A stretch of 64,000 nucleotides of DNA from Pedobacter sp. Leaf170 (GTDB lineage: Bacteria > Bacteroidota > Bacteroidia > Sphingobacteriales > Sphingobacteriaceae). The stretch lies in NCBI RefSeq assembly GCF_920984665.1, contig NZ_CAKLBP010000002.1, positions 744,001-808,000 of the forward strand, given 5' to 3'. Of this stretch, positions 21,266 through 27,743 are shown one piece after another; within the stretch, counting starts at the first letter, position 1; each line of letters begins with the position of its first letter. The notes beneath the pieces were generated by a model. The model was not told the origin of the DNA and made no database searches. It saw only the letters and a program-made list of their open reading frames with translations. The translations under genes were made by a program, and so were the position numbers.

Positions 21266-21514
21266 ATGAATACGAATAAAGAAAATAGCGGAGGTTCAAA
21301 TAAAGAGCATAAAGCAAACATCGATTTAGATAATGATACTTATGGTCATAGCTCAAACAATGAAGCTTTTAAAAGGAAAGATGAACCAGCTCATGATGGA
21401 GAAGATAATATTGATGCATCAGGAAAACTAAAAGATAAAAATCTTACAGAAAGTGATGATTTATCGAGTAGAAATAAGGGGGAGAATAAGGGAATTGGCG
21501 GTAAAGAACAATAA
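21266..21514 (+). CDS. Small disordered hydrophilic protein
   Basis: 82 residues, start MNTNKENSGGSNKEHK. Rich in Asn, Asp, Lys, Glu, Gly and Ser; a single Tyr, no Cys or Trp. No signal peptide and no recognisable domain. A -7 box TAATTTTG lies at 21174-21181, about 85 nt upstream. Similar in composition to the genes at 20082 and 21789. Function unknown. Confidence 0.6.
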   Translation: MNTNKENSGGSNKEHKANIDLDNDTYGHSSNNEAFKRKDEPAHDGEDNIDASGKLKDKNLTESDDLSSRNKGENKGIGGKEQ

Positions 21515-21788: not shown

Positions 21789-22178
21789 TTATATTCCTGT
21801 ATTTAAAGCATCATCCTCGTTTCTTTGCTTTATATTATTGCGTTGGGTGGTGTTAAAATCTTTAGATGAACTCCCAGTACCACTTGCAGCACTTTCAATC
21901 GTTGGGTTTTTATCTTTGCTATTATACGCATCATCACTTAAAGAATCTGCACCCTGAGTTCCGGTATTGTCAAAGCCATCTCGGGCAACGATTTTAGTCG
22001 AAGTATTAGCATTTTTGCTGTCATTATTTTCAGTCGGCTCTTTGCCAAATGAGGTAACCTCGTTACCATCATTACCGCTTTCAAAAGCTTTTTGAACATC
22101 AGATTTTACTTTTGCTTCATCGGTATTGCCAACAAAGCCTTCTAAATGTTCTTCTTTATTATAAATGCTCGTTTTCAT
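21789..22178 (-). CDS. Disordered hydrophilic protein
   Basis: 129 residues, start MKTSIYNKEEHLEGFVGNTD. Low complexity: Asn, Asp, Ser, Thr, Gly, Lys; no Cys or Trp. No membrane segment. Upstream of and probably co-transcribed with the YtxH-like gene. The third member of a group of disordered small proteins around the NarL-type regulator. Function unknown. Confidence 0.6.
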   Translation of the reverse strand: MKTSIYNKEEHLEGFVGNTDEAKVKSDVQKAFESGNDGNEVTSFGKEPTENNDSKNANTSTKIVARDGFDNTGTQGADSLSDDAYNSKDKNPTIESAASGTGSSSKDFNTTQRNNIKQRNEDDALNTGI

Positions 22179-23920: not shown

Positions 23921-26317
23921 ATGAAAAGAACTCTACTCACTGCTTTGCTATTATTTGGCATGGCATTTTTTGTTAAGGCTCAAACTCCTCAGCTATTTAA
24001 CTATCAGGGAGCTGCACGAAATTCAAATGGTACAGCACTGGCCAACAAAAACATTACATTAAAAATCAGTATTCTTGATGCCTCGGCTAACGGACCTGCA
24101 CAGTACTCCGAAGTACGAAGTGTGGTCACAAATGCTTTCGGGCTATACAGTGTTATTATTGGCAGCGCCGGTGCAACTTCCACAACAGGAACCATTGCAG
24201 GTGTTACCTGGGGCGCAAATTTAAAATTTATTAAAGTTGAAATTGATCCTGATAATGGAAACAATTTCAGCCTTGCAGGAACTGCCCAACTACTGAGCGT
24301 TCCTTATGCATTGTATGCTGCCAATGGCCCAACAGGAGCAAAAGGCGATACAGGAGTTGCTGGACCTATAGGTTTAACTGGCCCTGCTGGTCCGCAAGGT
24401 GCAACTGGTGCACAGGGCATTAAAGGCGATACAGGAGCTGCTGGACCTATAGGTTTAACTGGCCCCGCTGGTCCGCAAGGTGCAACCGGTGCGCAAGGCA
24501 TTAAAGGAGATACAGGAGCTGCTGGACCTGCTGGATTAACTGGCCCCGCTGGTCCGCAAGGTGCAACTGGAGCGCAAGGCATTAAAGGAGATACAGGAGC
24601 TGCTGGACCTGCTGGATTAACTGGCCCCGCTGGTCCGCAAGGTGCAACCGGTGCGCAAGGCATTAAAGGCGATACTGGAGCTGCTGGACCTGTTGGTTTA
24701 AATGGTCCAGCTGGTCCTCAAGGCCCAGTTGGGGCAACTGGTGCCCAAGGTATTGCCGGCGTAGCAGGAGTTAAGGGCGATAAGGGCGATAAAGGCGATG
24801 CAGGTATTCAAGGTCCAGTCGGTCCATCAACTGGTGTCGCCGGAGGAGATTTAGCAGGGAATTATCCAAATCCAACTATTGCTAATCTTCAGGGTAAAAC
24901 ACTTACCGCACCAAACCCTGTCAATAATCAGGTATTATTATATGATGGAGCTGTATGGAAACCGGTAACATTAGATGTAAGTAATATTGCAGGTGGCAAG
25001 GCACTTAACTCAACAGATTTAAGCATTGATGCAAATGGTGCTACAGCATTATTAAAGGATGTAGTTATAAACATTAATAATGGAGCTGTTACTACAATTA
25101 AATTGGCAGATGGAGCAGTTACAACAACCAAATTAGCTGACGCAGCTGTAACTTCAATAAAAATTGGTAATAAAGAAGTTAAAAATGCAAATATTGATGA
25201 TGCAGCAGTTGGTACCTTACAACTTGCAAACGCATCTGTTTCTGTAGCTAAGCTTACAACTGCAGGGGTAACTGATGCGAATAAAGTATACATTACGAAT
25301 GCAGCCACGGGTGTACCCGAATTAATCAGCAGAAATGCTTTTATAAATGCTTCAGGATGGGCACTAAGAGGTAATACCGGCAACCAAGATAATTTGACCA
25401 ACTTTTTAGGTAATACAGATGATGTTGCAATCAATTTCACTGTAAATGGTCAAAAATCGGGTAGAATTGGAAACTCTGCTGATTTAAATATTTCTTATGG
25501 CTATAGAACGATAACAAATAACATTACTGGTTATTACAATAGTGCTTTTGGTAAAGAATCACTTTCACTAAATAATTCTGGCTATGAAAATAGTTCTTTT
25601 GGTTATTTAGCCATGCAAAGAAACATGAGTGGTTTTAATAACTCTGCATTTGGTTCACAGGCATTACTTGTTAATACTTCAGGCTCTGATAATACAGCAA
25701 TTGGCACAAATTCTTTAATCAGAAATATTAGTGGAACAGGTAATACGGGTATAGGAAGCGGCACCTTAACCTTTAATACCGGAAATAATAATACAGCAAT
25801 CGGCCAACTAGCTGGTGCGGCAATTAGTAGTGGTACGGGTAATATTTTAATTGGCAGCAACGCCGGAAGCTCACTTACAACCAACAACAATACATTAGTT
25901 ATAGCAAATACCAATACAACACTGCCGTTAATTTTTGGGCAATTGGCAACAAATGGTGGCGCACTAACTGTAAATAATAGTTTAGGCGTTACAAGCTCTG
26001 CACCATCAGCCTCAAGCACCTTAAACATTAATGGTTCATTTGCAACGGGTATTTTAAGATACACAACAGGCGGAAGTTTAACATTAAATGAAAGTCATCA
26101 CACAGTTAGAGTTTTAGGAGCGCTTGCAACTTCCATTGCTTTACCACTTGCGGGCGATGCAAAGGGTAGGATATATAGAATTATAAATGGCTCATCAGCT
26201 GCTGTGAATTTGGCAAACGTTGTACAACCAAATGGAACCGCCATACCAACGCTTCCATCTAATGAGGTAATTACAATTCAAAGCGACGGAACGGATTGGG
26301 TAAAAATTTCGCAGTAA
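23921..26317 (+). CDS. Exported collagen-like protein with YadA-head-like repeats (adhesin or filament)
   Basis: 798 residues. Signal peptide ([17 protein letters not shown]). Residues ~20-135: a beta domain ([20 protein letters not shown]), often found at the start of Bacteroidota tail-fibre-like proteins. Residues 136 to ~303: uninterrupted Gly-X-Y triplets, about 56, including a 27-residue unit repeated four times nearly exactly. Then [17 protein letters not shown] and alanine/valine-rich stalk repeats. Residues ~540-650: head repeats of the NTAIG/NSAFG type, as in YadA heads. A C-terminal beta domain ends in DWVKIS. The design (stalk, triple helix, head) points to a trimeric surface fibre. 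No type IX sorting domain is evident. It leads an operon with CHU_C and PorP/SprF proteins. Confidence 0.85.
24344..24667 (+). repeat. 81-bp tandem repeat, four copies, coding for collagen-like triplets
   Basis: Four adjacent 81-bp units start at 24344, 24425, 24506 and 24587; a diverged fifth begins at 24668 and carries extra triplets. Each unit codes 27 residues (nine Gly-X-Y triplets). Unit-to-unit differences are mostly silent, and copies 3 and 4 share the change of Pro-Ile-Gly to Pro-Ala-Gly, which shows recent duplication. Copy number is likely to vary between strains. Confidence 0.95.
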
Positions 26318-26322
26318 ATGCC

Positions 26323-26841
26323 ATGAAAAGATTATACTCATTCATCAGCTGTGCTTTATTAATAGCAATTGGTTTAGTTGCCCAAGCGCAAACCAGTATT
26401 CCGGCCAATCTTCCGCAGGTGATAAATGCTGCGAGCAATTATGGTAAAATCAATAATTTATATTTTGATTTTTCAGTAGGAGAGATGGTATTGGTTGAAA
26501 CTTTCCAATCAAGTAACATTGCGCTAACACAAGGGTTTTTACAACCGATTATAATTTCTCAAACGGTAACAGATTTAATCATCACAAACAACTTTTTAAC
26601 CCCAAATGGTGATGGTAAAAATGATTTCTTTGTGGTGAAGGGCTTAGAGAAATATTTAAATAATAAAATTAAGATTGTTGATAGAGCAGGAAGAGTTATT
26701 TATAGTGCCGTCAATTATCAAAACGATTGGGATGGATATTACAATGGGCAACCGCTTGCAGAAGATACCTACTATTATCTTATCGATTTAGAAAATGCAG
26801 GTACTGTAAAAGGTTTTATATCTATTATTTATAAAAAATAA
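26323..26841 (+). CDS. Small exported protein with CHU_C (type B type IX sorting) domain
   Basis: 172 residues from the ATG at 26323; it begins 5 nt after the adhesin stop. Signal peptide (FISCALLIAIGLVAQAQ). Residues ~20-85 are a short beta domain (LYFDFSVGEMVLVETF, ALTQGFLQP). Residues ~90-172 are the gliding-motility-associated C-terminal domain: NNFLTPNGDGKNDFFVVKGL, IKIVDRAGRVIYSA, NDWDGYYNGQPLAEDTYYYLI, GFISIIYKK. In this family the domain directs export by the type IX system and surface attachment. It has almost no cargo of its own, which is unusual; it may serve as an anchor for the adhesin before it (inference). Confidence 0.88.
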   Translation: MKRLYSFISCALLIAIGLVAQAQTSIPANLPQVINAASNYGKINNLYFDFSVGEMVLVETFQSSNIALTQGFLQPIIISQTVTDLIITNNFLTPNGDGKNDFFVVKGLEKYLNNKIKIVDRAGRVIYSAVNYQNDWDGYYNGQPLAEDTYYYLIDLENAGTVKGFISIIYKK

Positions 26842-26846
26842 CAGCT

Positions 26847-27743
26847 TTGAAAAGGATAAAAATATATATAATTGGGCTGTTATTAATCTATGCAATTCAA
26901 CCTGCATACAGTCAATTAAATCCAATGGGTAGCGTTTACTACCAAAATCAATATTTGGCAAACCCTGCTTTGGCTGGTATTGATTCGATGATAAACTTAA
27001 ACGGTGCTTTTAAGGCGCAGTGGACTAGTATTAAAGGTTCTCCCAGAATTCAATACTTAACCGGCGATTTGCAATTGAAAAGCAAAAAGGTTGGGTTAGG
27101 GATATTAGTTTACAATGAAAGCGCAGGTTTAATTAACAGAACAAGGGCAACATTTAGCTATGCTTATCACTTAAAACTTAATGCAGATTCAAGCTATATT
27201 GATTTTGGCTTAGCAGCAGGTGTAATGAATGAATGGCTTGATTTAGGTAAAGCCATGGGCGATGTTAATGATGATATTCTGGCTAATTTCAGAGACAGGC
27301 AATTATACATTGATGGTGATTTCGGTATAGCCTATAGAAATGAAAAATTAACTATACAAGGCTCATTACCAAACTTAAAGCGGTTTTTTAAACGCGATCA
27401 GGTTAGAAATGTAGTAGATAGATCAATATATTTTCTTGCCGCTGGATACAAAATCAGCATGAAAAGTGAAACCCTTAATTTAATCGAACCTAAGGTTGTA
27501 TTTAGAGGAATAGAAAATTATAAGGGTATATTAGATGTTGGTGCAAACTTTAGTTTCTTGCAAGAAAAATTTGCGGTAAGTGGTATTTATCATAGTACAA
27601 ACAGCATCACATTTGGCGCTGGTCTAAACTATCAACGCAAGCTTCAGCTTTTGCTTCAGTATACTACCAACACATCTGGCCTGCAAAATTATAGCAATGG
27701 AGAGTTTGAAATTGGTTTACGTTACAGCTTTCGCAAGTTTTGA
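26847..27743 (+). CDS. PorP/SprF family type IX secretion outer-membrane protein
   Basis: 298 residues. Signal peptide (IYIIGLLLIYAIQPAYSQ), then the family hallmark NPMGSVYYQNQYLANPALAGID, and a small barrel with GLGILVYNESAGLINRT, ATFSYAYHLKL, SYIDFGLAAG and the C-terminal NGEFEIGLRYSF. PorP/SprF proteins help secretion or surface placement of specific type B type IX cargos and are usually encoded next to them. It starts 5 nt after the CHU_C gene. Confidence 0.92.
   Translation: MKRIKIYIIGLLLIYAIQPAYSQLNPMGSVYYQNQYLANPALAGIDSMINLNGAFKAQWTSIKGSPRIQYLTGDLQLKSKKVGLGILVYNESAGLINRTRATFSYAYHLKLNADSSYIDFGLAAGVMNEWLDLGKAMGDVNDDILANFRDRQLYIDGDFGIAYRNEKLTIQGSLPNLKRFFKRDQVRNVVDRSIYFLAAGYKISMKSETLNLIEPKVVFRGIENYKGILDVGANFSFLQEKFAVSGIYHSTNSITFGAGLNYQRKLQLLLQYTTNTSGLQNYSNGEFEIGLRYSFRKF

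Follow-up and report, generated by a model that had tools for sequence, protein, structure and literature searches.

What exports a long collagen-like fibre protein, or holds it on the cell surface, when the protein has neither a type IX secretion system (T9SS) signal nor an autotransporter anchor? The question is raised by three adjacent genes in a 64,000-nucleotide stretch of the Pedobacter sp. Leaf170 genome (contig NZ_CAKLBP010000002.1, positions 744,001 to 808,000), referred to here as the window. The open reading frames encode, in order on the + strand, a fibre, a small CHU_C protein and a PorP/SprF protein, and the re-derived coordinates agree with the 5-bp gaps between genes claimed in a previous sequence-only reading. 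The parts of the trio, in window coordinates, are as follows.

23921..26317, + strand: fibre gene (798 aa; has a signal peptide but neither a T9SS CTD nor an autotransporter anchor)
23984..24319, + strand: FND (fibre N-terminal domain), a Bdello_MAT_N-like base domain (NCBIfam match; high-confidence fold in a relative)
24326..24829, + strand: collagen-like stalk (56 Gly-X-Y triplets)
25532..25855, + strand: seven head repeats of ~17 aa (beta-roll-like; resemblance to YadA judged only by eye)
26323..26841, + strand: small T9SS type B protein, the proposed adapter/anchor (172 aa from ATG)
26413..26559, + strand: SVGE domain (~50 aa; unmatched in Pfam, NCBIfam and PDB), to which the fibre base is proposed to dock
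26581..26826, + strand: type B CTD, CHU_C/TIGR04131 (Pfam/NCBIfam matches, AlphaFold fold)
26847..27743, + strand: PorP/SprF carrier barrel (298 aa, TTG start, no cysteine, without the SprF CxC tail)

The host genome (4.47 Mb) encodes 10 CHU_C proteins, among which that of the trio is by far the shortest (open frame of 191 aa; the others range from 495 to 3141 aa), and a genome search found FND in a single copy. Upstream of the trio, two small, very hydrophilic proteins are predicted on opposite strands (21266-21514 and 21789-22178).

The fibre consists of a signal peptide, the ~112-aa FND, 56 consecutive Gly-X-Y triplets (aa 136-303; Collagen match in Pfam/NCBIfam, 1.9e-24), a stalk, seven ~17-aa repeats and a C-terminal tip. 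It had been described as a large protein with collagen triplets and no type IX signal, and we likewise found no CTD in it. Across the 56 related fibres scanned, none carries a T9SS CTD of type A or B, and none an autotransporter anchor, including the C-terminal YadA type. The YadA-like head that had also been claimed stands in part: seven NxAxG-type units (aa 540-641, spacing mostly 17 aa) resemble a beta-roll on visual inspection, but the Pfam YadA_head model has no match in this fibre and matches only 1 of the 56 related ones. Tips among these 56 fibres are diverse (S74 chaperone in 7, and also C1q, Fib_succ_major, Collar and others), and collagen occurs in 24. The NCBIfam model of the Bdellovibrio MAT N-domain (NF053851) matches all 25 diverse FNDs (best 7e-12), with the FND of this fibre scoring 32.2 bits, below the cut-off of 60. 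A PDB sequence search with FND gave nothing significant, and a Foldseek search with its model returned generic Ig-like matches only.

The small protein comprises a signal peptide (read by eye), the ~50-aa SVGE domain (pattern SVGE...TQGFxQP) and a T9SS type B CTD. It has the features of a type B substrate (TIGR04131, 76.8 bits against a cut-off of 35, 1.1e-21; CHU_C, 83.5 bits against 27, 1.2e-23). When the protein was modeled alone with AlphaFold, pLDDT was 81-89 in the CTD, whose model matches T9SS CTDs in Foldseek, and 46-54 in the SVGE part, for which no covering match exists in Pfam, NCBIfam or PDB. All 35 SVGE proteins scanned, called adapters here for their proposed role, have a CTD (29 of type A, 6 of type B). 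The export signal attributed to the small protein is thus real, but "near-cargo-free" does not describe it, since a conserved domain lies between signal peptide and CTD; because this domain recurs across the phylum, the protein is not an empty leftover. Large CTD proteins (2412-2938 aa) with an N-terminal SVGE domain adjoin a short fibre too. At loci L084, L086 and L097, giant CHU_C proteins (1632-2938 aa) with N-terminal SVGE lie between a fibre of 395-432 aa and PorP.

Among 60 genomes of relatives, profile searches for each domain found both FND and SVGE in the same 29 and neither in the same 31. On the same strand and within 3.5 kb of FND lie 48 of the 56 SVGE matches, versus 0.21 expected by chance; for the other CHU_C proteins of these genomes the count is 2 of 81, both in clusters that hold the pair. 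Copy numbers of FND and SVGE correlate (rho = 0.92), and the pair is adjacent in 12/12 single-fibre genomes. A separate phylum draw of 198 genomes gave SVGE adjacent to FND for 31/33 SVGE matches. In the same draw, 13 of the 35 genomes with strong FND had no SVGE match; inspection of ten of these 13 revealed a small CTD protein beside the fibre in every case; the SVGE profile scores in four of these loci, and the other six have a divergent "SAGE" form judged by eye. At loci L150-L153, L158 and L159, in another class of the phylum, the adapter with this divergent form has a CTD of type A, and its gene precedes a lone fibre gene. The SVGE profile was built from sequences next to fibres, so divergent unlinked copies may be missed; such seeding bias cannot account for the absence of SVGE from all 31 fibre-less genomes.

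The sequence-only reading had suggested looking for the trio in other Bacteroidota. The exact trio is kept in other Pedobacter genomes. The pair of fibre and small CTD protein is kept in many families and outside the class as well, and among the named genomes that have it are those of Pedobacter, Taibaiella, Flavobacterium, Kaistella and Mesonia. Gene order varies (SVGE upstream of the fibre in 78 cases, downstream in 16), and the pair persists, also across a change of CTD type. Fibres without an adjacent SVGE (30/82) are always in genomes with SVGE elsewhere. At loci L103 and L123, three or four fibre genes stand in tandem with just one SVGE adapter, and one adapter may therefore serve several fibres. 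No natural single-chain fusion of SVGE and FND was present among the fetched loci.

The third gene was correctly named as PorP/SprF: its product, which adjoins a type B substrate, scores 172 bits with PorP_SprF (cut-off 22.3; 2.4e-50) and 176 with TIGR03519 (cut-off 90.55; 8.3e-52). Of the 21 type B adapters, 20 have a PorP/SprF gene as a neighbour; of the 91 type A adapters, one does. At six type A loci (five same-genus genomes and one Chitinophaga), a second PorV comes after the adapter (365-405 bits; cut-off 250), and each of these genomes retains one housekeeping PorV elsewhere. The carrier thus follows the CTD type (PorP/SprF with B, a second PorV with some A): SVGE and FND are constant, while CTD and carrier switch together. 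The second-PorV loci (L138, L146, L131, L137, L147 and L226) combine a type A SVGE adapter with a long fibre, mostly of ~1000 aa. In the phylum draw, SprA is present in 50/50 FND-positive genomes versus 154/198 overall, with 44 genomes lacking it (p ~4e-7, uncorrected for relatedness). The CxC tail links SprF to the gliding track (PMC12635249). The PorP of the trio has no cysteine and hence no SprF-type CxC motif in its C-terminal tail. The fibre is therefore probably static, without transport along the gliding track; a gliding adhesin like SprB is accordingly not favoured.

In a comparison of 94 pairs, distances between SVGE domains correlate with those between FNDs (r = 0.52; maximum of 2000 permutations, 0.15), compared with 0.20 for SVGE and the CTD of its own chain and 0.02 for SVGE and the fibre tip, and tip divergence is unrelated to base divergence. 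Within type A only, the contrast is narrower (0.51 and 0.36), and the SVGE-FND value of 0.51 barely exceeds that of CTD-FND (0.46). Neither within-genome paralogues (n = 21) nor a partner-transfer test (26/42) discriminated. Structure prediction of the fibre with the CHU_C protein, another check that had been proposed, was carried out in AlphaFold with the adapter and FND of a relative (L244) as one read-through chain, without a trimer, and produced no confident 1:1 interface: FND and CTD fold, SVGE is of low confidence, and pTM is 0.51, on an alignment in which unpaired adapter rows are partly misaligned at their C-terminal ends.

From sequence evidence, we consider it probable that SVGE is the dock through which the fibre base is attached to an anchor exported by the T9SS, and that the trio makes up a surface fibre of two parts together with an outer-membrane platform of its own. 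The notion that the small protein is the exported anchor of the fibre thereby gains support from genome anatomy, in that both pair conservation and a carrier tracking CTD type are what an exported anchor or adapter predicts. Beyond the gene order, domains, genome-wide association and carrier rule that are directly observed, we infer FND-SVGE binding, its stoichiometry and an export route. Sec signal peptides would bring fibre and small protein into the periplasm, where the fibre would trimerise via its collagen stalk and beta-roll head, and the FND at its base would be bound by the N-terminal SVGE domain of the small protein, whose CTD the T9SS and the carrier, here PorP/SprF, would recognise. 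PorP/SprF barrels shuttle and anchor type B CTD proteins (PMC9143113, PMC12618676), and a CTD on its own determines destination (PMC12618676). Because T9SS substrates exit the SprA pore CTD-first and carrier-bound (PMC10994853), the adapter would emerge before the fibre base; it may tow that base, or hold a fibre surfaced by other means. At the surface, the CTD would remain on the barrel and the fibre would project with its tip outward. Somewhat short of even confidence, we conjecture that a trimeric fibre lacking a CTD leaves through the T9SS as heteromeric cargo, that an adapter of ~170 aa tows it base-first, with the N-terminal SVGE domain as surface dock for MAT-type fibres in Bacteroidota, and that adapter and dedicated carrier (PorP/SprF or second PorV) form a modular, phylum-wide fibre platform. 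We found no precedent in the literature for T9SS export of a CTD-less partner.

The small protein could instead be an anchor only, with the fibre crossing the outer membrane by another route and being captured outside by SVGE on PorP/SprF. Bdellovibrio is not known to have a T9SS. Its MAT fibres, which have a similar base domain, surface nonetheless (PMC10769870), so another export route exists somewhere, and the gene association data do not separate anchor from escort. We regard this alternative as rather unlikely, as the fibre has no known export module and FND in the phylum is confined to SprA-positive genomes. The poor folding of SVGE in the model of the small protein alone, and the position of its gene next to the fibre gene, would also suit a periplasmic chaperone or trimerisation helper whose CTD merely disposes of it. 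Such a helper would need no carrier of its own, yet PorP or a second PorV is kept according to CTD type, which makes this role improbable.

Adjacency can arise from co-regulation alone, and the two might be independent surface proteins that share only a co-regulated cassette. The identical phyletic sets of FND and SVGE, their matched copy numbers, the co-divergence of SVGE with FND and not with the fibre tip, and the position of the 2412-2938 aa SVGE proteins, which also adjoin a fibre, argue against a cassette, to which we give slightly less credence than to a helper. Least credible by far is a decayed adhesin that lost its cargo. It would fit a short protein nearly without cargo, but the ~50-aa domain and the short length are both found again in many families and outside the class, and we reject it because the short architecture is conserved.

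Parts of the proposed docking arrangement resemble known systems. SprB-SprF and PG1035-PorP likewise pair a type B CTD protein with a PorP/SprF barrel encoded by an adjacent gene, a barrel expected to shuttle and anchor (PMC9143113, PMC12618676); there, however, adhesin and CTD form one chain, whereas here the adhesive fibre is a separate protein, the CTD protein amounts to little more than a docking domain, and SprF has the CxC motif that the PorP of the trio lacks. With trimeric autotransporters (YadA), the fibre has in common a stalk, beta-roll head repeats and a presumed trimer, but the C-terminal membrane anchor is missing in 56/56 fibres. The collagen-like adhesins Lcl and Scl share the Gly-X-Y stalk (NCBIfam matches below cut-off) and differ in N-terminal domain and anchoring. 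Bdellovibrio MAT fibres resemble this fibre type in the N-terminal base domain that follows their signal peptide, in having a shaft and in swappable C-terminal tips including S74 (PMC10769870), although the match of this fibre to the NCBIfam MAT N-domain falls below cut-off. The surface element that holds their invariable N-terminal domain was described as awaiting identification (PMC10769870); here, a candidate holder, the SVGE adapter, is encoded next to the fibre. The tandem genes pep25/lbp26 of Flavobacterium collinsii were considered as a possible mutant of the pair, and the text consulted gave no link to it. The view of the sequence-only reading that no described system has this division of labour agrees with our literature search, with subscription journals and preprints mostly outside it, which found no published description of the adapter or of the fibre-adapter pair.

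Many Bacteroidota have long collagen-like or tail-fibre-like proteins without a known export or anchoring signal, and the SVGE adapter would supply one. If the proposed docking is true, it would be a case of T9SS cargo that lacks a CTD and depends on a partner for export or anchoring, and the question of what secures MAT-type fibres to a cell becomes testable in Bacteroidota.
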